A DNA stretch of 64,000 nucleotides, from positions 1 to 64,000 of the forward strand of contig JAJRQY010000069.1 in NCBI GenBank assembly GCA_024280015.1, read 5' to 3'. Positions within the stretch are counted from its first letter, which is position 1. Each line of letters begins with the position of its first letter. The position numbers and the translations under genes were made by a program. Shown here piece after piece: positions 9,818-46,599 of this stretch. The notes beneath the pieces are model-generated. The model worked only from the letters and a program-made list of their open reading frames with translations, had not been told where the DNA came from and searched no databases. The DNA comes from Actinomycetes bacterium (lineage in GTDB: Bacteria > Actinomycetota > Acidimicrobiia > Acidimicrobiales > SZUA-35).

Positions 9818-10608
9818 GAATTGGTGACTGCTCCAAGTTCACGAGACCGACTGGCGGCCGCCACCACCGCATCGATGAGTGCTCCTCTGACTCCTTGCTG
9901 CTCAAGCACCCGCAGTCCGGCCGCCGTTGTCCCCGCTGGGGTCGTCACTCCCGCCCGCAAAGCTCCCGGCTCTTCTCCGGTTTGTTGCAACATGGCCGCT
10001 GCTCCGGCCATGGTTTGATGAGCCAACGTCTTGGCGATCGGTCGAGGCAAGCCCGCAGTAACGCCAGCATCGGTGAGGGCCTCAGCAATCAGGAAGAAGT
10101 AGGCCGGGCCCGATCCGGACAGTCCAGTAACCGCATCCAGCTGGGGTTCGGTGACAAGTACCGCCTCACCGACTGCGGACAAGAACGACAGCGCCCATTC
10201 CAGGTCAGCTTCGCCGGTTGAGCTGCCGCCAGCGGCGGCCGAAGCACCAACCCCGACCAGTGAGGGCGTGTTAGGCATGATCCGGACAACGGGCGTGCTG
10301 GCCGGAACAACAGCCTCAATACTGCCAATGGTAATTCCTGCGGCAACCGAGGCAACCCGCGTCGGAGCTTCAAGCGCAGCGGCCGCAGCCAGAAGGTGAT
10401 GAGGTTTGGTGGCCAGCACGGTGTCAACCCCAGCTTGGGGCGAGTCAAGGACCACTAGTCCGGGAAAGAGTTCGCCCAGGGCTTGTCGTTGTTTTGGGTC
10501 GAGGTCAACAACGGCCAGATCTTCGGGTTGAGCCCAGCCCGAGGCAATCATGCCCCCTAGGAGAGCTTGTCCCATCTTGCCGCCGCCAACCATTTGCAGC
10601 TTTGTCAT
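9814..10608 (-). CDS. proC: pyrroline-5-carboxylate reductase
   Basis: MVGGGKMGQALLGGMI, MPNTPSLVGVG, SGSGPAYFFLIAEALTDAGV. Confidence 0.93.
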   Translation of the reverse strand: MTKLQMVGGGKMGQALLGGMIASGWAQPEDLAVVDLDPKQRQALGELFPGLVVLDSPQAGVDTVLATKPHHLLAAAAALEAPTRVASVAAGITIGSIEAVVPASTPVVRIMPNTPSLVGVGASAAAGGSSTGEADLEWALSFLSAVGEAVLVTEPQLDAVTGLSGSGPAYFFLIAEALTDAGVTAGLPRPIAKTLAHQTMAGAAAMLQQTGEEPGALRAGVTTPAGTTAAGLRVLEQQGVRGALIDAVVAAASRSRELGAVTNS

Positions 10609-10736
10609 GGTCACCAAGCTACAGCTGCAAGGGTCAATTGGAGCGGAGTCGCTAGGGCTTCCCCGACCCCTGTGCAACACCGCTCCAACCAACGATGTTG
10701 ACAACTCTAGGTCGCCATAAACGTATTCCAACGTTG

Positions 10737-11198
10737 TTAAGTGAATTTAGACGCAAAACCTATTTGCAGCGCCGGACGGAAGAACTGTTCGACCCAGACA
10801 TAGACGGATCCGAGAACTCGATCCAGTTCATCCTCAGTCTCGATGAGTGAGTTGTCCAAGTGCCCTTCAAGGAAGATGCCATCCTCGGCCCCGACGGAAA
10901 ACTTGGCTCCGTACATCTTGTGGTTCCGCCTCAGAAGGTGAGCAAAGAACTCTGCTTCGTTCTCGATTGGCCAAGGCATGACATAGCACTCGAAGTACAG
11001 GCTTCGTTGACCCAGCTCAAAACGGACAGTACTGAAGTCCTTCTCTTCACCGGCGAGGCGTACAAACCAACGGCGATTGCCTGGAGTATCCCGCTCGACG
11101 GAGGCAACAGCAGGGTTCGTTTCCAACTGTTCATCCAGCCAATGATCGAGCACAGCCTCGAGCCGGGCCAGATCCTCTGAACTCTGCAGACCGGGCAT
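10737..11198 (-). CDS. YbjN domain-containing protein
   Basis: YFECYVMPWPIENEAEFFAHLLRRNHKMYGAKFSVGAEDGIFLEGHL; sits directly downstream of the mshA-like gene. Confidence 0.85.
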   Translation of the reverse strand: MPGLQSSEDLARLEAVLDHWLDEQLETNPAVASVERDTPGNRRWFVRLAGEEKDFSTVRFELGQRSLYFECYVMPWPIENEAEFFAHLLRRNHKMYGAKFSVGAEDGIFLEGHLDNSLIETEDELDRVLGSVYVWVEQFFRPALQIGFASKFT

Positions 11199-30232: not shown

Positions 30233-30835
30233 ATGACCGAATCCTCAAACCCCAAATCATCGGACATCTCCAACTCGACCTCTTCTGGCGAGCCGAAGTC
30301 CAGCCGCAGCCTTCTGGTCGGAATTGGTGTCGCCCTCGTCCTCGGACTGGGATTGCTCGCGTTCGTTGGTGGCAACTCAAGCACAACCAGTACAGGCAAC
30401 GGGGCCGAGCATGCCGCCATCGACTCCATCTATGAGTTCACGCTAGGTGCCCCTGACGGGTCCACCAGTTCGCTCGCTGACTACCAAGGCAAGCCAATGG
30501 TGGTCAACTACTTTGCCGCCTGGTGCCCACCGTGTCGGCGCGAGCTTCCAGATTTCGAAGCTGTGCACCAAGAACTCAGCGACGAAGTAGCCATCGTCGG
30601 TGTCAGCCGAGACAACACCACCAGCGCCTGGCTCGGCCTTGTTGAGAGCGCCGGCCTGACATTCGACACCTTCTATGAGGGAAATGTTGTTGGCTCCTAT
30701 GAATTCGTTGGCGGTCTGGCCATGCCGACTACTGCCTTCGTCAGTGCCGATGGCGAAGTCATGCACACCTTCAGCGGGGCACTCACCCAAAAGGGCCTGA
30801 CTGACCTCATCAACGAGCATCTGCTCACCAACTAG
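30233..30835 (+). CDS. TlpA-family thioredoxin-like disulfide reductase
   Basis: FAAWCPPCRRELPDFEAVH; N-terminal TM anchor. Confidence 0.93.
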   Translation: MTESSNPKSSDISNSTSSGEPKSSRSLLVGIGVALVLGLGLLAFVGGNSSTTSTGNGAEHAAIDSIYEFTLGAPDGSTSSLADYQGKPMVVNYFAAWCPPCRRELPDFEAVHQELSDEVAIVGVSRDNTTSAWLGLVESAGLTFDTFYEGNVVGSYEFVGGLAMPTTAFVSADGEVMHTFSGALTQKGLTDLINEHLLTN

Positions 30836-30900: not shown

Positions 30901-31824
30901 ATGGGAGATCTCCTCGACGCAAGAGCCTTTGCCTTTGGCATGGTGGCTCTTATCAACCCCTGTGGCTTTGCCTTGCTACCGGCCTATCTCGGTTTCTTCC
31001 TTGGCCTAGACGATGACGATGGCGAGCAATCACGAATCGTCGCCCTCAACCGGGCACAAATTGTCGGCCTCTCGCTGTCGGTCGGCTTCCTCCTGGTGTT
31101 TGGAGTAATCGGCCTAGTCTTCGCCGGACTTTGGAACTCCATTGCCGACTACATGCCATACGTCACTATTGTCATCGGTGTCGGACTCATCGTTCTTGGC
31201 ATCGCAATGCTGCGAGGCTTTCAGCCGTTGCTGAAACTGCCAAAGCTTGAAAAGGGAACCGGCTCCCGCTCAGCAGTCAGCATGTTCCTCTTCGGCATCT
31301 CCTACGCCATTGCTTCCCTGTCCTGCACCATTGGCATCTTCCTCAGCGTCATCGGAACCTCAGCGTCGGGAGCCTCGTTCGCCAGCCGCTTCGGGTCGTT
31401 CCTTTCCTACGGTTTAGGCATGGGGCTATTGGCTACCGTGCTTACCCTTGCCGTCGCCTTTGGTAAGAAGGGCATCGTCAACCGCTTCCGCCAGGTCCTC
31501 CCCAAGATCAACATGGTCTCGGCAGTAATGTTGCTGGTTGTTGGTGTCTATGTCGCTCTCTACGGCATCTGGTCCTACCAGATCTTCAGCACTCCGGCTG
31601 GTGAACCCCTCAACCTCACACCATGGATCGATTCCATCATCACCACCGCCGAAGGCATTCAAACCGACGCTTCCAACTGGTTCGCCGCCGATGTCTCCAT
31701 TGGATCCAGCACCATGGCTCGCACCACCATCTTGGGTTGGGCCTTCTTCATCTTGAACGCTGGCCTCATCATCGCTGGTGCGGTTGCCCGTCGGGGCAAG
31801 TCGATCACTCCTCAGATCGGCTAG
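30901..31824 (+). CDS. cytochrome c biogenesis protein CcdA family
   Basis: INPCGFALLPAYLGFFLG ... SLSCTIGIFLSVIG, six-TM pattern. Confidence 0.93.
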   Translation: MGDLLDARAFAFGMVALINPCGFALLPAYLGFFLGLDDDDGEQSRIVALNRAQIVGLSLSVGFLLVFGVIGLVFAGLWNSIADYMPYVTIVIGVGLIVLGIAMLRGFQPLLKLPKLEKGTGSRSAVSMFLFGISYAIASLSCTIGIFLSVIGTSASGASFASRFGSFLSYGLGMGLLATVLTLAVAFGKKGIVNRFRQVLPKINMVSAVMLLVVGVYVALYGIWSYQIFSTPAGEPLNLTPWIDSIITTAEGIQTDASNWFAADVSIGSSTMARTTILGWAFFILNAGLIIAGAVARRGKSITPQIG

Positions 31825-35981: not shown

Positions 35982-36851
35982 TTACTTGGAGGCGAGCTGT
36001 TGCTCGGGCAAGGTGTTGCGCTTACGGTGACGATCCTGACGTGCCTTGCGATCAACCTCATCGGTGTCACCCAGCGAACGAGTGAAGATGACAAGAATCG
36101 TGATCCAGATGAACCATCCGCCAAGGATCTTCATGATGGCACCGGCCAGCTGCTGGTCGGCCAGAACATCCAGGCCCCAAAGACGAAACGGCGTGTCGTA
36201 GTGCCGATAGACAACATCATCAGCAAAGACCAGCCAACCACCGGGCACTGTTGGCACGACCGACATCAAGAACAGGTAGAGGCACTGACCGAGCGGCGGC
36301 AGTCGCCATTCGCTAATTGGCCCGATGACCGGTATCCACATCAGCAATCCTGAGGAGAAGATGATCAGATGGAAGGAAAAGTGTAGGGCCGCAGAATCGG
36401 CTGACCACTGGACGATTTTGGTCCAGTGCAAGAACATGGTCAGTAAGTTGAACAGGGCGCCAGCGATCAGGGGCGAGGAGACCTTCTTGAAACTCCGCCA
36501 CAAGCGCGTATCTGGACGAACGAGAAGCTCGAAGACCCAGCGCGGGGTGGCCAGCACAAAACAAGCTGGGATCAGCATTGACAGTAATAGATGCTGGAGC
36601 ATGTGGACCGAATAGAGATAGTCCTCGGCAATATCGTGCATCGGCCAGTCCGAGGCCAGCCACATCATGGTGAGGCCAAGCCCAAACCAGATTTTCTGGC
36701 GCCGATGAATAGCCGGATATCCAGCGGCAATTGCCTTGGGCTGCAGAACCTTGGCCGAATAGCCACCAATGGCGAGAGCGCCCAACACCAGGACCCACAC
36801 TTCAGGGTGGGGCACCCAGGGAACGGGGCCGCTGATGGCAAACATGGTCAA
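35982..36851 (-). CDS. ctaG: cytochrome c oxidase assembly protein, caa3_CtaG family
   Basis: SDWPMHDIAEDYLYSVHMLQHLLLSMLIPACFVLATP. Confidence 0.9.
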   Translation of the reverse strand: MTMFAISGPVPWVPHPEVWVLVLGALAIGGYSAKVLQPKAIAAGYPAIHRRQKIWFGLGLTMMWLASDWPMHDIAEDYLYSVHMLQHLLLSMLIPACFVLATPRWVFELLVRPDTRLWRSFKKVSSPLIAGALFNLLTMFLHWTKIVQWSADSAALHFSFHLIIFSSGLLMWIPVIGPISEWRLPPLGQCLYLFLMSVVPTVPGGWLVFADDVVYRHYDTPFRLWGLDVLADQQLAGAIMKILGGWFIWITILVIFTRSLGDTDEVDRKARQDRHRKRNTLPEQQLASK

Positions 36852-36866
36852 CTACTCCCAGACGAA

Positions 36867-37205
36867 CTAGACGTTGAATTCGAAGGTAGCGACCACCGTG
36901 GTATAAACCGCCAAGGCGACCACAATCCCAGCGGCGAACGCCATGGTAAAGATCTTGCCGTTGAGCATTTTCATGTCGAACCATAGGTGCATGAACACCC
37001 CAGCAACAATAACGAACTTGACCAGCATCATCACGATGAGCGGAACGACCAGGGCCGGTCCGGAGAATCCGAGATAGGACCACAACACCTCGAACGCAGT
37101 GATGACAGCCAACAAAAGGAAGACTAGCCAGTACTGGGTTTCGGTTGGATGAGCATGGTCGTCGTGGGACTCATGCTCGGTGGATGGGGTTGCAGTGTTA
37201 GACAT
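36867..37205 (-). CDS. cytochrome c oxidase subunit IV-like
   Basis: YWLVFLLLAVITAFEVLWSYL ... LVKFVIVAGVFMHLWFDMK. Confidence 0.85.
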   Translation of the reverse strand: MSNTATPSTEHESHDDHAHPTETQYWLVFLLLAVITAFEVLWSYLGFSGPALVVPLIVMMLVKFVIVAGVFMHLWFDMKMLNGKIFTMAFAAGIVVALAVYTTVVATFEFNV

Positions 37206-37214
37206 GGTTCGCCT

Positions 37215-37913
37215 TTACGGAATGAGGTAGACGATGGTGAAAATTAGGACCCACACAACGTCAACGAAGTGCCAGTACAAGCCGACAAGCTCGACGGTCT
37301 CGGCTCGGTCTTGGTTGAGTTTGCCCTTGAACGAGAGCACAAGCAGGGTCATCAGCATGACAATTCCGCCGCTGACGTGGATCCCATGGAAGCCAGTGAG
37401 GGTGAAGAAGGCCGATCCAAGCAAGCTGCCGGTGAAGGAAAGTCCCTCTTCCTTGAAGGCAGTGAACTCGGCAATCTGACCGGCAATGAAGAACGAACCA
37501 AGCAGGGCCGTTGTCCCCAACCAGATTCGCAGGTTCTTATAGTCGGCTTCACTGATGGCCTTGTGAGCCAGCACCATGGCCAGCGAGCTCATCAACAAGA
37601 TGAATGAGCTAAGGGAAGTGAACGGGATATCGAAGAGGGGCTCAACAGACCCAGCGGCCCGCATTTCCTCGACCAGAGTGGGATTGGAGATCGAGTCGAC
37701 CACCACGGGGTTGCCAGCCAAGATCTCGGTCAGGAACCGAGCCTTGGACAGCAGGTAGGTGGAGATCAGAGCACCAAAGAGCAGGCACTCCGAACCAAGG
37801 AACAGCCACATGGCCAGCTTCATGTTGGACAGGTTCAGGCTGGTCGCATGCCCAGCATGCTCGTCCTCGACATGGTCGGTGGCCTGCTCGGCAACTACGG
37901 CGGCATCAGACAT
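37215..37913 (-). CDS. ctaE: cytochrome c oxidase subunit III
   Basis: LWLFLGSECLLFGALISTYL ... FFTLTGFHGIHVSGGIVML ... YWHFVDVVWVLIFTIVYL. Confidence 0.95.
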   Translation of the reverse strand: MSDAAVVAEQATDHVEDEHAGHATSLNLSNMKLAMWLFLGSECLLFGALISTYLLSKARFLTEILAGNPVVVDSISNPTLVEEMRAAGSVEPLFDIPFTSLSSFILLMSSLAMVLAHKAISEADYKNLRIWLGTTALLGSFFIAGQIAEFTAFKEEGLSFTGSLLGSAFFTLTGFHGIHVSGGIVMLMTLLVLSFKGKLNQDRAETVELVGLYWHFVDVVWVLIFTIVYLIP

Positions 37914-39888
37914 TGACGGTGCTCGCGATCTCGGCGTGATCAGACTTGTGATCGTCATGTCCGTGGGGAAGATCAAGATCATCGGCAGGCTCAAGGGCCC
38001 AGCCGTACAGGCTAACGACCATGAGGAAGCCTCCAGGGATCGTCAACCATAGCGAGAAGATCAAGCCGTAGCCGATGAGGGGCAGCGAAGCGGCCAACAG
38101 GAGCGGCCAATAGGACGGCGCAGGAAGATGAACGCCTTCACCGTTGCCGGGCTGGGCAATGTCGGCACCATGAGCGACCTTGCGCAACTTGCCGTTCTCG
38201 TCCTCGGCATACTTCTGATGCCAGAAGTCATCAACGGAGACAATCTGCGGGTCATAGTCAAAGTTGTGTTCTGGGGCTGGACTCTGAATTGACCATTCGA
38301 TGGTACGGGCGTCCCAAGGATCAGGTCCCGGGTTCGGCTTGCCGGCCTTGTTCCACCGATACAGAGACAGGAAGACGTTGGTGATGAAGAGCAACACGCC
38401 TGATGCGAGGATGAAGGAACCAACGGTTGCCCAGAAGTTCCACAGGTTGAATCCCATGGCATCGTCATAGGTCTGCATCCTTCGCGGCATTCCCTGCAAT
38501 CCGAGAATGTGCATTGGCCCAAAGGTGAGGTTGAAACCAACGACCATGGTCCAGAAGTTCCACTTGCCCCACTTCTCATTCAGCATGTGGCCAAACACCT
38601 TCGGCCACCAGAAGTAGAAACCGGCCATGAAGCCGAAGAGGGCGCCACCAAAGAGCACATAGTGGAAGTGGGCCACAATGTAGTAGGTGTCAGTTTGCTG
38701 AGTGTCCGAGGGGGCCATGGCGTGAGTAACACCAGACAGGCCGCCGACGGTGAACTGGGTGATAAGTCCAATGGAGAACAACATGGCGGTGTTCAGGGTC
38801 AACTTGCCGCCCCACAAGGTGGCAACCCAATTCAGGATCTTCACACCGGTTGGCACGGCGATAAACATGGTGGAAAGAGCGAAGGCGGTAACCGACAACG
38901 GTCCGATTCCAGAAACGAACATGTGGTGGGCCCACACACCGAAGCCCATGAAACCAATAGCAATGCCAGAAAAGACCATGAAGGGATAGCCGAAGATTGG
39001 TTTTCGGGCGAAGGTTGGGATGACCTCGGAGACAATGCCGAATGCAGGCAAGATCATGAGGTAAACCTCAGGATGGCCAAAGATCCAGAATAGGTGCTGC
39101 CACAAGAGCGGGTCTGCCCCTTGCTCGACGTTAAAGAAGTTGGCATCAAAGACCCGGTCCATCAACAACAAGACCTGAGCAACAGTGATGACGGGGATGG
39201 CGAACAGGAGAAGGAACTGGGTAACCAGGGACATCCACACGAAGATTGGCATCTTCATCAGGTCCATACCGGGGGCCCGCATGTTCAGGACCGTGGTAAT
39301 CAAATTGATGGCGCCGCTTAGAGAGGCAATGCCGGTGATCAGTAGTCCGACGTTCCAAAAGTCAATGCCGTGCGACGGTGAGTAGGCAACGCCATTGTTT
39401 GGTGCGTAGTTGAACCAGCCACCATCGGCACCTCCACCGAGGAACCAGCTGGAGTTCAGCATCAGCCCTCCGAGGAAGAAGCACCAGAAGCTGAAGGCGT
39501 TGATTCGGGGGAAGGCAACATCTCGGGCACCGATTTGCAAGGGCAACAAGAAGTTGGCAAAAGCAGCACCGATGGGCATCACCACCAAGAAGATCATGAT
39601 CGTGCCGTGCATGGTGTACACCTGGTTATAGGCATCTGCCGACAAGAAATTGCTATTTGGTGTAGCCAGCTGGATTCGAATGAGCAGGGCAGCAACCCCG
39701 CCAATCAGCATGAAGAATACGGCCGCTGAGCCATACATGATGCCGATCTTCTTGTGATCGACAGTCGTCAACCAGTCTTTCAGGCCAGTCTCTGACCGTG
39801 GCCGGGAGAAAACTCCAAGCGGATTGGCTACTCCAGGCTTGTCACCTTCGGGAAGGCTGTAGCGGAGGGGCTCGTTAAAGATCGCCAT
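37906..39888 (-). CDS. ctaD: cytochrome c oxidase subunit I (canonical)
   Basis: VYTMHGTIMIFL, FGHPEVYLMILP, WAHHMFVSG, YYIVAHFHYVLFGG. Confidence 0.98.
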   Translation of the reverse strand: MAIFNEPLRYSLPEGDKPGVANPLGVFSRPRSETGLKDWLTTVDHKKIGIMYGSAAVFFMLIGGVAALLIRIQLATPNSNFLSADAYNQVYTMHGTIMIFLVVMPIGAAFANFLLPLQIGARDVAFPRINAFSFWCFFLGGLMLNSSWFLGGGADGGWFNYAPNNGVAYSPSHGIDFWNVGLLITGIASLSGAINLITTVLNMRAPGMDLMKMPIFVWMSLVTQFLLLFAIPVITVAQVLLLMDRVFDANFFNVEQGADPLLWQHLFWIFGHPEVYLMILPAFGIVSEVIPTFARKPIFGYPFMVFSGIAIGFMGFGVWAHHMFVSGIGPLSVTAFALSTMFIAVPTGVKILNWVATLWGGKLTLNTAMLFSIGLITQFTVGGLSGVTHAMAPSDTQQTDTYYIVAHFHYVLFGGALFGFMAGFYFWWPKVFGHMLNEKWGKWNFWTMVVGFNLTFGPMHILGLQGMPRRMQTYDDAMGFNLWNFWATVGSFILASGVLLFITNVFLSLYRWNKAGKPNPGPDPWDARTIEWSIQSPAPEHNFDYDPQIVSVDDFWHQKYAEDENGKLRKVAHGADIAQPGNGEGVHLPAPSYWPLLLAASLPLIGYGLIFSLWLTIPGGFLMVVSLYGWALEPADDLDLPHGHDDHKSDHAEIASTVNV

Positions 39889-39902: not shown

Positions 39903-41183
39903 CTAATCGAGGGTCGCCAAGTAGGCGACGAGATTGTCAAGATCAATATCGGACAGGGTGTCGAAGGAGGGCATGCCGCGCCTGCCTTCGGCAAACATTG
40001 CCTTCCGGCTTGGCGCATCCTTGATCCACGCCAACACATCGGCCTCATTGAACTTGCCAATATCGGACAGATTCAGGTACTGGTCAGTGTCCAAGTTGTC
40101 ATCATCGGGATCGATCCCGAAGTACTGACTGTAGGTGGCGCCAGCAAAGACACTTCGGCTAGCGAAGTGGGTCAGATTCGGGGCCGCGCCATTGAGCAGG
40201 TCAGCTTCGAAATCTTTGGGATACGCGTCTTGCAGATCCTGGTCGTCATTGCTGACAACATGGCAACGAGAGCACTGGGAGACAAAGACGTCATAGCCGG
40301 CACGTTCATCGGTGCCCTCGGCTGGGACTTCTGACGGCGCACTCTGTTCGGCCAACCACTGATCGAACTCGGCCTCAGGAAGCACAACGACGCTCATCCG
40401 CATTCGTGCATGGGACAGACCACAGAACTCGGTGCACCACCCGTTGTACTCGCCAGGCTCATCCGCATGGATTGACCAGTAGGTCAGGCGCCCGGGAACG
40501 GTGTCTCGCTTTCCGTTGAGGCGCGGAATCCAGAAGGAGTGCACAACGTCGCGAGAGGTCAGGGTTAGGTCGACCTGTTGGCCTGCGGGAATGACCAGCT
40601 GATTGGGGACCGAAAGGTCATCGTCATCAAGCGCGATGTTGAGTGGCCATTCCTTGTCGTCCTGGTCGCCGGTTCCTTCGGGTCCATACAACTCGCCGTC
40701 ACCATCGGCATCTTCGAAGAAGCCATCACCATCAATGTCATAGCGGTATTCCCACCACCACTGGTTGCCAATAACCATCACGTCAAGTTCGCCCGGCGCG
40801 TTGTCCTCTTCCAGCTGCCAGATGGTGTTGACCATGGGGACGGAGATGGCGGCCAAAAAGATGGCTGGGGCAATAGTCCAACCAAGTTCGGCCACCTTGT
40901 GGCCATGGACCTGGGCCGGGAGGTCGTTCTCATCATAGTCCTCGGGCTTGACTCGACCCTTGATGGTGAGGGCAATAGTACCGCCAACCACCAGTATGAA
41001 AACAACGAGGACAATCCACCAGATGTGGACCATGGAGTCATAGATGGTTTGAGCCTTCTTGCCGCGTGGCTCAAAGGTGTTGAGGGGCTTGTCGTCGGCG
41101 CACGAAGCGGCCAGCAACGTCAACGCCAAGAGGGTCACGCCACCGCGGACATTGAAACGTCGCAAGGGATTCCTTGAGGTCAT
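39903..41183 (-). CDS. ctaC: cytochrome c oxidase subunit II with fused C-terminal cytochrome c domain (caa3-type)
   Basis: CuA motif WCTEFCGLSHARMRM; heme c CSRCH near the C-terminus. Confidence 0.96.
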   Translation of the reverse strand: MTSRNPLRRFNVRGGVTLLALTLLAASCADDKPLNTFEPRGKKAQTIYDSMVHIWWIVLVVFILVVGGTIALTIKGRVKPEDYDENDLPAQVHGHKVAELGWTIAPAIFLAAISVPMVNTIWQLEEDNAPGELDVMVIGNQWWWEYRYDIDGDGFFEDADGDGELYGPEGTGDQDDKEWPLNIALDDDDLSVPNQLVIPAGQQVDLTLTSRDVVHSFWIPRLNGKRDTVPGRLTYWSIHADEPGEYNGWCTEFCGLSHARMRMSVVVLPEAEFDQWLAEQSAPSEVPAEGTDERAGYDVFVSQCSRCHVVSNDDQDLQDAYPKDFEADLLNGAAPNLTHFASRSVFAGATYSQYFGIDPDDDNLDTDQYLNLSDIGKFNEADVLAWIKDAPSRKAMFAEGRRGMPSFDTLSDIDLDNLVAYLATLD

Positions 41184-41186
41184 GAG

Positions 41187-41978
41187 TTATTCGCCTTCAC
41201 CTTCGCCGTGGCCACCGTCATCAGCCCCATCGCTTACTCCCTGATGCTCAAAGTCTCGGATCCCTTTTTGGGCACCGAAGATACCGCCGCCGAGAATAGC
41301 CAGAGCACCGACGACCATGATGGTAGAGACAAGGCTTCGTGGCAGGTCCCGCTTGGACATCAGCACGGCAAGACCAAAGACGGTCAGGGTGACAATGGCG
41401 CCGATCACGACCGCAGCAACCGCTGAAACGGTAAGGAATACTCGGGAGCCGGCAATGGCAATGGTGCCGAACAACAGCATGCCAAGCATTGGAACCTCGA
41501 TTGGCCCAAGAACGCGCGAACGGATGATGGCATTGGCTTCGGGGTCACCAGATGCCCGGTCAGACCAAGCCGTGATCATCCACTCGATGGCCATGACGAC
41601 CAAGGTGAGGAGGCCAAGGACTAAGAAGGCCTTGCTCATGGCCAGGCCAATGATCAACAAGGCCACACCAAAGGCGGTGATGGGAGCCCAATAAACCGAG
41701 CTAAGGGTTGGCAGTGCGGGAACCGTTGAGACTCCAGCCGAATCGGCCATTGCTTGGGCATCACCGTCACGAGTAGCAATGCCAACCATGGCCAGAGCAA
41801 AGGTCACAAGGCTGGTAAAGATCAGGATGGTGTAACCAAGGTGAGCGCCGACGCCCCCCTTGTAGCCGACGCTGACCACACCAATCGGGTCACCGCCGGT
41901 GACTAAGCCGTAGACCATGGCACCAAGAAGCGCTGCTCCTGACAATGCCAATAGATATTTTGAACCCCAGGTGAGCAT
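41187..41978 (-). CDS. hypothetical multi-pass membrane protein in oxidase cluster
   Basis: Multiple TM helices; His/Glu/Gly-rich tail (DDGGHGEGEGE). Confidence 0.8.
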   Translation of the reverse strand: MLTWGSKYLLALSGAALLGAMVYGLVTGGDPIGVVSVGYKGGVGAHLGYTILIFTSLVTFALAMVGIATRDGDAQAMADSAGVSTVPALPTLSSVYWAPITAFGVALLIIGLAMSKAFLVLGLLTLVVMAIEWMITAWSDRASGDPEANAIIRSRVLGPIEVPMLGMLLFGTIAIAGSRVFLTVSAVAAVVIGAIVTLTVFGLAVLMSKRDLPRSLVSTIMVVGALAILGGGIFGAQKGIRDFEHQGVSDGADDGGHGEGEGE

Positions 41979-41990
41979 CGTTTGACGGTC

Positions 41991-42608
41991 CTACTTGGTG
42001 ATGTAGATGGCGTACCAAACAACGAGGTACAGCACAACGGCGACATTCCAGAACAGAGCAGCGCCATAAATGCCTTCAACATCTTTGGCGTTGTAGTTGC
42101 CACCTAAGGTACGCAATCCCATGACTATCACGTACAGCATTGCTGCGGCCATGATCAACATGTGGGCACCGATAAGGGCGTAGAACAAGGGGGGACGAGC
42201 CAGCTCGTCCCCGGCGGCAGGCATTCCCATAATCTCAAGTAAGAAGCCAGTCTGGGCAAGATAGGCGAAGCCAAAGACAACACAAAGCGACAAGGCAATG
42301 TGGGTGTTTGCTCGGTCGTCATGGCGAATGGCTGATACAGCCCAGGCCATAGCCACCATGGACATGACCAGGGTGATGGCCATCATGTTGGGCTGGGTCA
42401 GGGGGATGGTGACTCCCTTTGGCAGCCAGATTTCGCCTTGGGCCAAGACCGCAGCCCGGCTCTGCACATAGATGCCAAGCAAGCCAGCCATGCCCATGGT
42501 TGCCGCCATGGCAGCTAGGGCGGTGCCGATCACCAACAAGCGAGGCCGAGAGGCCTCGGGTGCAGCAACAGTTTCGGGGAGGGCGTCGAAGACGGTGATA
42601 TCGGTCAT
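41991..42608 (-). CDS. cytochrome oxidase subunit III-like protein
   Basis: MTDITVFDALPETV... with COX3-like helices (PLFYALIGAHMLIMAAAMLYVIVMGL; ALFWNVAVVLYLVVWYAIYI); ATGA-coupled to the COX1-like gene. Confidence 0.8.
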   Translation of the reverse strand: MTDITVFDALPETVAAPEASRPRLLVIGTALAAMAATMGMAGLLGIYVQSRAAVLAQGEIWLPKGVTIPLTQPNMMAITLVMSMVAMAWAVSAIRHDDRANTHIALSLCVVFGFAYLAQTGFLLEIMGMPAAGDELARPPLFYALIGAHMLIMAAAMLYVIVMGLRTLGGNYNAKDVEGIYGAALFWNVAVVLYLVVWYAIYITK

Positions 42609-44284
42609 CAGGCTTCCTCTGCCTTGTTCGGCGTGGGTTGGCTCAGTACGGCCATACCGCTCGTTGACTCCATGACTGGTGCGGAAGCAAAGTTGCCAAG
42701 GGAGGGTGGTGAAGACGTGGTCCACTCAAGTGACTGCCCAGACCACGGTTCGGGTGTTGTTCCCGTTCCAAGTGCGGTGCGAGCCAGGTTGGCAAGAAAC
42801 ACTAGAGCACCCAGGCCGAGTACAGCGAAGCCAATGGTGGCTAGCACATTGAGCACCTCCACCCCATCCTTTGGTCCAACACCGATGCCAGGAAGTGCTG
42901 GTTGCTCCAGCATGCCGCTGATGACATAGGCGCCGCCCCAGGCAATCGTGCCAGCAGAGACGAGCAAGATGCTCAGCATGCCTAGCTTGTCGTCCAGCGA
43001 ACGGCCCCAAATCTTGTGACCCCAATGATGGACTGAGCTCACGATTCCGAGCAAGACCGCCCCGAGGATCAAACCACGAATGCCTTCGTGGAACGAAGAG
43101 TCGGCAAGGCGCAGGGCTGAGCTGACGTCGATCTCACTGTTTGAAGCATCGGCAACGAATTCGAGAATTGGTTCGATCAGCGCCAGGAGGGCAACGAGGG
43201 CGCCAACCGCAAGTAAGGCCATAGCGGCCATGCCAGCAACAAGCGGGGTGTTAGTGGCCGGCTTACCGTTCTTGACCGCATCAGCGGCCATGCCAAGGAG
43301 AAGGAGGATCGGAACCACGGCGGCAAGAACTCCGAGGACAAGCACGGCATTGTCAAACTCGATGGCTCGGCCACGACCTCCGAAAGTCAGGATGTCTGCC
43401 CCGAACGAAAGGACAAGTAACGAGCCGATCAAGGCAAGCGCTGGCTTGTGGAATCGGACCCTTGACTCGGATTGGGTCGCGACAACATCGAGTCCCATGC
43501 CCAGGACAGGAATGCCGACCCAGTACAGAGCCGGTGCCAGGCTGAGGCTATTGAGGATGGACAGCAGGGCTTGACGATCGACCTTGGTGGACAAGTAGTC
43601 AGCGCTGACATCGGCGTAGGCCAAGCCAAGCTCGCCAATCAGGATCGGGAGGGTGAGGAGCCCAAGAAGGGAGAAGACCAGGAATGACCAGGTGCTGATT
43701 GGCACGTGTTCCAACCGCATGCCGATGGTTCGAGCACCGAGGATGGTGGTTGCGATGCAGACAAAGGCCCAGCAGAAACCGACAAGCATGGTTCCAAGGG
43801 CCAAGATCCACAGCAGGACGGCATCCTTGGAACCACCGGCTGGTCCGCCGTTGGCCACCACAGCCAAGATCAGGATTCCGGTAGCGAGAAGCCACGTCCA
43901 AAAGGCGCCAGCTGCCCCACGGCCAAAGGCGATGGCTGATGCGCCAACCTGGAGTGGTGTGAGGTAGGTGGCTAAGCCGATGAGGACGGGGATGACACCA
44001 CCAAAGAGCAGGAGGGTTCTTCCCGCTGACCAAGCTTGAACGAATTGTCCCTCGTCTTCAAACAATCCAACGGAGCCGAGGTCGATCAGTTCGATGCTGG
44101 CAATCGTGGACAAGACCAGAGCTAGGAGCACAAAGGCGGCGCCAGCACCAATCCACATCCGACCGATCGTCTTGTGATCGCTGGTGCTCAAGACGCGTTC
44201 CAGAGCGGGCCTGGCAGCGGAATCGGAGGTCTGGATTGAGTCAGTCGTTGAATCAGTCTCGGTGCGAGTTTGAGTCAATGCCAT
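42608..44284 (-). CDS. COX1-like heme-copper oxidase subunit I homologue lacking canonical metal ligands
   Basis: DHKTIGRMWIGAG, PVLIGLATYLTPLQVGASAIAFGR, HKIWGRSLDDKLG and PWSGQSLEWTTSSPP match COX1 landmarks, but MHG, HPEVY, HH and HFH are absent. Confidence 0.8.
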   Translation of the reverse strand: MALTQTRTETDSTTDSIQTSDSAARPALERVLSTSDHKTIGRMWIGAGAAFVLLALVLSTIASIELIDLGSVGLFEDEGQFVQAWSAGRTLLLFGGVIPVLIGLATYLTPLQVGASAIAFGRGAAGAFWTWLLATGILILAVVANGGPAGGSKDAVLLWILALGTMLVGFCWAFVCIATTILGARTIGMRLEHVPISTWSFLVFSLLGLLTLPILIGELGLAYADVSADYLSTKVDRQALLSILNSLSLAPALYWVGIPVLGMGLDVVATQSESRVRFHKPALALIGSLLVLSFGADILTFGGRGRAIEFDNAVLVLGVLAAVVPILLLLGMAADAVKNGKPATNTPLVAGMAAMALLAVGALVALLALIEPILEFVADASNSEIDVSSALRLADSSFHEGIRGLILGAVLLGIVSSVHHWGHKIWGRSLDDKLGMLSILLVSAGTIAWGGAYVISGMLEQPALPGIGVGPKDGVEVLNVLATIGFAVLGLGALVFLANLARTALGTGTTPEPWSGQSLEWTTSSPPSLGNFASAPVMESTSGMAVLSQPTPNKAEEA

Positions 44285-44460: not shown

Positions 44461-45465
44461 TCAGGTTCCCCAACCAACCAACATGTCGATGGCAACGGCG
44501 GCAAACAAGATGGTGAGATGGGTGATGGAGAAGCCAAAGTAGCGGATGGCTTTTTTCTCGAGAACCGCCGGATTCGTCTCTCGAACAAGATCCAGAGCAC
44601 CGCCGGAGAACATGGCTCCGACAACGACGGCCGAACCAACGTAGATCCAGCCCATATTGGCCACTGGCCACAAGGCAAGGCTGACAGCCCAGACAATGAG
44701 GGAGTAGACAAACATTTGACGGGCCGTCGACTTGTGCCCGGCTACCACCGGCATCATTGGAACTTCGGCCGCGGCATAGTCAGATTCGTAGCGGATGGCC
44801 AAAGCCCAGAAGTGTGGTGGGGTCCAAAAGAAAACCACCAAGAACAGCAGGACTGCGGGCCAGCCAACCGAGTTGGTGACCGCTGACCAGCCAATCAGTA
44901 CTGGAGCGGCACCAGCGACCCCGCCAATGACAATATTTTGAGTCGAGGTTCGTTTCAGCCAGATGGTGTACACGAACACATAGAAGAGGCAGGCAGCAAC
45001 GGCCAGGGCAGCGGAAAGCAGGTTTACGAAATGCCAGAGGTAGAAGAAAGCCACGATTTCTAGACCAATGGCGAAGATCAGTCCTTCTTGGGGCTGGATC
45101 TCGCCAGTGACGAGCGGTCGCCCCTTCGTCCGTTCCATCTTGGCGTCAATATCTCGATCGACGTACATATTGATGGCGTTGGCGCCGCCGGCTGACAGTG
45201 AGCCACCAATGACCGTGTTGATCATGAGCCAGACAGAGGGCATGCCGCGTTCAGCCAGCACCATTGTCGGCACAGTACTGACAAGGAGTAATTCGATAAT
45301 TCGAGGTTTGGTAAGGGCGACGAATGCCCCCACCCTTGATCGGGTCACAGATGCGGTTAGAACCACGGAACATAGGGTACCGAGCGATGTCAAGAGCAGA
45401 CGGTGCTGAGTTGTGAACTCTGGCCGGTCGCCGATTGTTCTTGCTTCTTGTTCTTGATGCGTCAA
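44461..45465 (-). CDS. ctaB: protoheme IX farnesyltransferase (heme O synthase)
   Basis: VALTKPRIIELLLVSTVPTMVLA ... NAINMYVDRDIDAKMERTKGRPLVTG. Confidence 0.96.
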   Translation of the reverse strand: MTHQEQEARTIGDRPEFTTQHRLLLTSLGTLCSVVLTASVTRSRVGAFVALTKPRIIELLLVSTVPTMVLAERGMPSVWLMINTVIGGSLSAGGANAINMYVDRDIDAKMERTKGRPLVTGEIQPQEGLIFAIGLEIVAFFYLWHFVNLLSAALAVAACLFYVFVYTIWLKRTSTQNIVIGGVAGAAPVLIGWSAVTNSVGWPAVLLFLVVFFWTPPHFWALAIRYESDYAAAEVPMMPVVAGHKSTARQMFVYSLIVWAVSLALWPVANMGWIYVGSAVVVGAMFSGGALDLVRETNPAVLEKKAIRYFGFSITHLTILFAAVAIDMLVGWGT

Positions 45466-45522: not shown

Positions 45523-46599
45523 GTGGTGGTGACCATTGCCAATCCGGAGACGAGCCCTGAAGCGGCCACCGGCATTTCGGCCAACCGGTATCGCCAGATC
45601 GTTGGTGTTGCTGGTGTTTTCCTGGTGCTGATTGTCCTCAGTGGCTCCGCCGTACGACTAACCCAAAGCGGTCTTGGGTGTGAAGACTGGCCGAAATGCT
45701 CCGAAGGCCAATTGGTGCCTGAGTGGGCCTTCCATAGCTGGATCGAATTTGGCAACCGCCTGATCTCCGGTGTCATTGGCGTCATTGTTATTGCCGCTGC
45801 CCTTGGTGCCTATCGGCGAGTTCCCCGACGACCTGACCTGTATCCCTGGGCCTGGGGTTTGGTTGCTGGAGTGCTGGCCCAAGTCGTTCTTGGGGGCATG
45901 ACGGTCTGGGTCGACCTGCATCCCCTCTTCGTGAGCGTGCACTTCCTCCTGTCAATCGTCTTGATCTGGAACGTCATGGTCTTGTGGCGCAAATCTGCTA
46001 TCGAAACTGATGCGGTTGAGACCAACGCGACTGAGACCGACTCGATCCTTCAGCAAGCCGCTGGCCAGTCTCCTTCAGCGCTCACACTGACTCCTTCAGC
46101 GCTCACACTGAATCTCAGCCGGGCAGTGATGGTTATGGCAACCGTGGTGCTCATGGTTGGCACCTTGGTCACCGGTACTGGACCCAATAGTGGTGACAGC
46201 CAGGCCCTTCGCCTGTCCTTTGATCTCCGTTCCATTGCCCAGGTGCATAGTGCAACGGCCTGGGTCCTGGTTGCTCTCATTGTTGCTTTGGCCTTTCAGT
46301 TGCGGTCACAAGCAGCAGCGACAAGGTTTGAGGGGTCTGGGGGCAAGACGCCTTTTGCCCAGGTCCAGGTCCTCCTTGCACTAACCGTGAGCCAGGGGGC
46401 GTTGGGGTACCTGCAATACGCACTCGGGGTCCCCGCTGGTCTGGTCGAGCTGCATGTTGCTGGCTCACTTGCGGTCTGGTGTGTCGCCCTGTGGTTGCAC
46501 CTAACTCTGGGAAGCATGACGTCAGCCGGAAGTGCCGTGACTAGCTCGACCTCAGCTATTGTCACCGACTCAGGCCTGACCCCCGGGGGTATTTCATGA
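45523..46599 (+). CDS. ctaA: heme A synthase, COX15/CtaA family
   Basis: VLSGSAVRLTQSGLGCEDWPKC ... FGNRLISGVIG ... LHVAGSLAVWCVAL. Confidence 0.93.
   Translation: MVVTIANPETSPEAATGISANRYRQIVGVAGVFLVLIVLSGSAVRLTQSGLGCEDWPKCSEGQLVPEWAFHSWIEFGNRLISGVIGVIVIAAALGAYRRVPRRPDLYPWAWGLVAGVLAQVVLGGMTVWVDLHPLFVSVHFLLSIVLIWNVMVLWRKSAIETDAVETNATETDSILQQAAGQSPSALTLTPSALTLNLSRAVMVMATVVLMVGTLVTGTGPNSGDSQALRLSFDLRSIAQVHSATAWVLVALIVALAFQLRSQAAATRFEGSGGKTPFAQVQVLLALTVSQGALGYLQYALGVPAGLVELHVAGSLAVWCVALWLHLTLGSMTSAGSAVTSSTSAIVTDSGLTPGGIS
46071..46112. repeat. 21-bp tandem repeat x2 in ctaA
   Basis: tccttcagcgctcacactga(c/a) twice, encodes PSALTLTPSALTLN. Confidence 0.9.

Follow-up and report, generated by a model that had tools for sequence, protein, structure and literature searches.

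An oxidase operon of an Acidimicrobiales bacterium, carried on the 64,000-nucleotide stretch analysed here (the window), encodes, beside an intact canonical oxidase, a second COX1-fold protein (pCOX1) in which all the ligands of heme a, heme a3 and CuB have been replaced. It belongs to a three-gene module that is found in one order only and whose early-branching relatives keep a low-spin heme pair and carry a blue-copper domain, three features that the first-pass annotation of this DNA had missed. We propose, with about even confidence, that the module may be a shadow complex IV protomer, formerly an electron-transfer side module, which now serves the active oxidase as a structural or assembly partner.

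Organization of the oxidase operon

The operon is transcribed from the minus strand in the order ctaB-pCOX1-pCOX3-TM4-coxB-ctaD-coxC-coxD-ctaG (Table 1), and its canonical oxidase is intact, as judged from CtaD and from CoxB with its CuA and cytochrome c domains. The cytochrome c domain of CoxB is C-terminal, which corresponds to a caa3-type fusion. The C-terminal extension of CtaD matches Cyt_c_ox_IV (PF12270, E 2.2e-8), and part of subunit IV seems to be fused to subunit I in the window. The mechanically called ORF of pCOX3 begins upstream of the gene start, at 42725. A pair of genes coding for a thioredoxin-like and a CcdA-like protein lies about 4-5 kb from the operon; elsewhere in the same genome (G000) there are two more genes of the COX1 family (C71:5690-7006 and C67:13722-15074), as well as cytochrome b genes.

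Table 1. Genes of the oxidase operon and neighboring genes in the window
Gene	Product	Position	Strand	Remarks
ctaA	heme A synthase	45523-46599	+	divergent to the operon
ctaB	heme O synthase	44461-45465	-	first gene of the operon
pCOX1	COX1-fold protein, 558 aa	42608-44284	-	all heme a, a3 and CuB ligands lost
pCOX3	diverged COX3 homologue, 205 aa	41991-42608	-	Pfam COX3 match exceeds the curated cut-off (E 6.5e-7)
TM4	membrane protein, 263 aa, N-terminal half subunit IV (CtaF)-like	41187-41978	-	no cupredoxin domain
coxB	subunit II of the active oxidase	39903-41183	-	CuA ligands and fused cytochrome c domain
ctaD	canonical subunit I	37906-39888	-	every ligand present
coxC	canonical subunit III	37215-37994	-	true start probably within the ORF
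coxD	small subunit IV, COX4_pro type	36867-37205	-	
ctaG	ctaG-like assembly protein	35982-36851	-	named from position and appearance only
	CcdA-like membrane protein	30901-31824	+	
	thioredoxin-like protein	30233-30835	+	WCPPC

Fold and ligand residues of pCOX1

The first-pass annotation had read pCOX1 as a COX1 homologue, and this reading holds. The protein matches Pfam COX1 (PF00115) with an E of 8e-24 and 84.7 bits (cut-off 34.8), is 24% identical over 548 columns to CtaD of the same operon (P0001 and P0002, E 2e-27) and stays below the cut-off of the CtaD equivalog TIGR02891 (133 bits versus 670.75). Its AlphaFold model (pLDDT 84, pTM 0.87) finds mycobacterial and corynebacterial CtaD as best PDB matches in Foldseek (TM-score 0.77, E 3e-19), and model and structure comparison indicate that the 12-helix heme-copper oxidase fold is kept. 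By fold and homology, pCOX1 is a member of the subunit I superfamily of heme-copper oxidases.

Ligands were read from an alignment that combined 60 members of the pCOX1 family and 69 CtaD sequences, at the positions H94, H276, H325, H326, H411 and H413 (which we take to be Paracoccus numbering). These histidines are kept in all 69 CtaD, and the six are replaced in pCOX1 of the window: H94 by G (SAGRT), H276 by A (LAPALYW), H325/H326 by L/T (DILTF) and, in helix X, H411 by I and H413 by G (EGIRG). A second alignment shifts the helix X gap by one, which places a gap and R at H411/H413, again without histidine. The bis-His pair of the low-spin heme (H94, H413) is therefore G and G, and the binuclear center (the heme a3 histidine and three CuB histidines) reads I, A, L and T; never more than one CuB histidine is found in any family member. 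The loss of all heme and CuB histidines that had been claimed from the sequence, including the change of TMHGT to SAGRT and the pairing of HFH with GIR, is thus borne out, and no histidine stands at the metal sites in the alignments, while the fold-level structure comparison agrees on the fold. The further claim that FGHPEVY and AHHMF have no counterpart needs a small correction for the first motif, which aligns with LAPALYW; the proline of this stretch (P251) is conserved across 98% of the family. Y280 is also kept, as Y254. Channel residues are replaced (D124 by A, as already noticed for the D-channel, N131 by A and K354 by L), so that pCOX1 of the window lacks the K- and D-channel residues of an A-type proton pump, and the propionate arginines R473/R474 have become A/P. 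Within the pCOX1 family (e.g., in L033, L039, L041 and L045), Q-P-Q and W-A-Q motifs recur that place Gln at former CuB histidine positions, together with a conserved N-terminal peptide, M-[AT]-x-T-[ED]-T-R-P.

The partner genes pCOX3 and TM4

In the window the stop codon of pCOX1 overlaps the start of pCOX3 (TGATG), and 34 of the 60 loci have such a one-base overlap with ATG. pCOX3 scores above the Pfam COX3 cut-off (29.9 bits versus 23.8). TM4 of the window has no significant Pfam match, and PF12270 recognizes two of 19 TM4 members below its cut-off (best E 2.9e-5). A TM4 family profile compared with the PDB matched four actinobacterial subunit IV sequences collinearly (E 0.003-0.11), with one match ranked above them, a designed repeat protein; no structural match was found for the TM4 model (pTM 0.58) in the PDB. 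The N-terminal half of TM4 may be related to actinobacterial subunit IV, on evidence of moderate strength, and homology to oxidase subunits would then extend from I (pCOX1) and III (pCOX3), where sequence comparison supports it well, to IV.

Early-branching relatives and the loss series

Early-branching members were collected by a profile search of 249 genomes, from which 20 loci were read, in addition to members already in hand. The H94/H413 pair is kept in all 24 early-branching pCOX1; CuB is lacking in all of them, the heme a3 histidine is kept in some, and H411 varies (H, Q, N, T or V). In a phylogeny with masked ligand columns and a CtaD root, those that keep the heme pair branch off early, one after another, and a single loss of the pair falls in the ancestor of all other members, that of the window among them.

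In 19 of the 23 heme-pair loci with a readable TM4, this protein ends in a cupredoxin-type sequence with a type-1 copper pattern, a motif present in none of the 52 loci without the heme pair; Cupredoxin_1 (PF13473) was detected with E values of 1.6e-11 to 7e-9 in the three early-branching TM4 tested. The H..C..H..M type-1 ligands are thus confined to early-branching TM4 and are absent from the window, although TM4 of L040, L061 and their kin keeps an extra C-terminal stretch devoid of copper ligands. The association between heme pair and copper motif has a Fisher p of 3e-14, a value that ignores the kinship of the loci; because the loci are related, it is the tree that carries the argument. 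At least three early loci contain a thioredoxin-like gene (WCxPC) between TM4 and coxB (L062:7591-8229, L063:3552-4100 and L137, about 10526-11136), and their TM4 has the copper domain; maturation of the copper site would fit as the function of this gene.

From these sequences the order of loss was likely CuB, heme a3, blue copper and low-spin heme. An ancestor with the full set of ligands was sought within the order in the 249 genomes and 20 loci, and no module member keeps CuB.

A proposed origin and role of the module

pCOX1, pCOX3 and TM4 would have oxidase subunits I, III and IV as their paralogues and would together form a protomer. CuB would have been gone already in the ancestor common to all sampled members, excluding the usual O2 reduction. 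At the next stage the module would have been an electron-transfer side module, its redox sites being a low-spin heme held by two histidines of pCOX1 (H94/H413) and a type-1 copper on TM4; the ligands of this early module are seen in sequence, and electron transfer is the function that they suggest. The lineage of the window would then have been stripped first of the a3 ligand, next of the blue copper and last of the heme pair, and present selection would act on shape, chiefly on the cytoplasmic loops and the C-terminal segment common to CtaD. The module most likely docks on CtaD-CoxB-CoxC-CoxD as an asymmetric partner, which it could stabilize, assemble or space. A structural, assembly or regulatory role of pCOX1, as had been suggested in the first-pass annotation, is what we infer. 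With rather less than even confidence, we further suggest a new type of complex on the heme-copper oxidase fold, namely a complex IV made asymmetric by having a redox-stripped copy as one of its protomers, reached through a living intermediate with one low-spin heme and a blue-copper domain and without oxygen site.

Distribution and link to the oxidase

About 80 Acidimicrobiales loci have an open pCOX1 frame, placed between ctaB and coxB-ctaD. pCOX1 is present in all 24 sampled relatives of the window's own family, is widespread in the order and adjoins oxidase genes on every contig long enough to show its neighbors. The module was found in this order only. Named carriers are metagenome-derived Acidimicrobiales or Acidimicrobiia, apart from a few named otherwise or less precisely; the module is very probably also present in a cultured type strain, which would make its purification possible. 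In the phylogeny, pCOX1 is a single clade with 100/100 support, as deep as the order.

Among the genomes of the order that seem to lack pCOX1, those checked have only a different type of CtaD, 43-48% identical to P0002, or no intact CtaD (G161 and G584), with two exceptions, one with a pCOX1 cut by the contig end (G031) and the other a fragmented assembly (G582). Two genomes of other orders (L065 and L066) have the operon-type CtaD (57-58%) without the module at that locus, so that the enzyme does not require it in general. Within Acidimicrobiales, the module therefore accompanies this oxidase type, which elsewhere can do without it. Related forms were also looked for in the other classes of the phylum, where the next-best matches (L102-L109) proved to be ordinary CtaD accompanied by coxB. 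An origin of pCOX1 by duplication of the operon-type ctaD is a possibility that the AU test on the CtaD tree neither establishes nor rejects (p 0.077).

The position of the module, directly after ctaB, before coxB and amid assembly genes, would also suit an assembly factor, that is, a transient scaffold or decoy that inserts subunits or cofactors into CtaD and stays outside the mature enzyme. The thioredoxin-like gene of the early-branching loci points the same way, and the loss of cofactor sites is consistent with a scaffold; however, a core of I, III and IV has been kept rather than a single chaperone, early members have redox sites of their own and the same CtaD type does without the module in sister orders, so we consider this a doubtful, if serious, candidate. 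An independent non-redox complex on the same fold, such as a proton or ion path, a transporter-like or a sensory membrane protein, is unlikely: pCOX1 has conserved positions of its own that differ from CtaD (R42, E65, A124, G150, R428 and P543) and diverges fast (about 24-36% identity between families), but the known D- and K-channel residues are gone, gene order with the oxidase is strict and the module co-occurs with one CtaD type.

The FH near the helix X site that had been pointed out in the first-pass annotation exists (H399, in FHEGIR), three residues before the aligned ligand position. It is conserved in the window's own family, and its counterpart in other subfamilies is E. Other subfamilies also repeatedly show Q at H276, within a Q-P-Q-x-Y motif, and Q at H325, so that a heme or metal could be imagined to be held by shifted ligands. 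Such a redox-active pCOX1 appears very improbable, as the partner positions are Gly or Ala in the window's family (with Gly at H94 no bis-His heme site is left for H399) and the heme pair was lost once on the tree and never regained.

Selection on pCOX1

Estimates of dN/dS were obtained with the Nei-Gojobori method in close pairs, with synonymous sites near saturation in several of them, and were 0.09-0.29 for pCOX1, 0.02-0.085 for ctaD and 0.05-0.23 for coxB; the range of pCOX1 is higher than that of ctaD and similar to that of coxB, and the value to the nearest relative of the window's pCOX1 is 0.16. The distant early-branching pair L062/L137 was left out, because it gave 0.4-0.6 for all five genes, ctaD included. 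With values far below 1, conserved synteny and intact CtaD and CoxB, the expectation of a pseudo-oxidase subunit maintained next to an active one is supported. A decaying pseudogene or recent lineage-specific duplicate, which the loss of all catalytic residues might evoke, is ruled out for practical purposes by this dN/dS range, by the open frames in about 80 loci and by a clade as deep as the order. In two loci of the same genus (L041/L044), pCOX1 has a synonymous divergence of 0.94, over double the values for ctaD (0.41) and coxB (0.34) of the same operon; recombination of the downstream genes is perhaps the cause.

The most conserved pCOX1 columns lie in the cytoplasmic loops and in the C-terminal segment common to CtaD (27-30% of columns), and the periplasmic side is the least conserved (4%). 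Since this is the side on which electrons would enter, a docking or scaffold role fits better than a redox role, in line with the proposed partner of the active oxidase.

Comparison with known systems

Heme-copper oxidases are defined by their metal centers. A paralogue selected across an order without these centers, together with III- and IV-like partners, suggests that the scaffold function is separable from redox chemistry and that a respiratory enzyme can be converted into a purely structural or regulatory partner; as the surviving intermediates give the order of loss, this separation becomes testable. It is also a warning for annotation, because COX1 matches in Acidimicrobiales need a check of their ligands before they are counted as oxidases. 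Searches of the literature, mainly of open-access papers, found no description of such a protein.

With actinobacterial aa3 CtaD (PDB 6adq, 7q21 and 9gy6) pCOX1 shares the 12-helix fold (TM-score 0.77) and cytoplasmic motifs (PLQ..GA..AFPR, R.PGM, PK..GR and PW..TLEW..SPP..NF), but, unlike it, lacks the ligands of heme a, heme a3 and CuB, the K- and D-channel residues and the propionate arginines. For the early-branching form, the working analogy is with bis-His heme and blue-copper electron carriers: like them, it has one low-spin heme pair, and a partner protein bears a type-1 copper domain, although it is built on a COX1 fold without binuclear center. Pseudoenzyme subunits exist in respiratory complexes, for example the core proteins of mitochondrial complex III, and pCOX1 resembles these in being an enzyme-derived subunit kept after the loss of catalytic residues. 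It differs from them in that the catalytic heme-copper subunit itself is its paralogue, in having III and IV partners and in its visible intermediates, and a pseudoenzyme of this origin, with its intermediates still living, is new as far as we have found.
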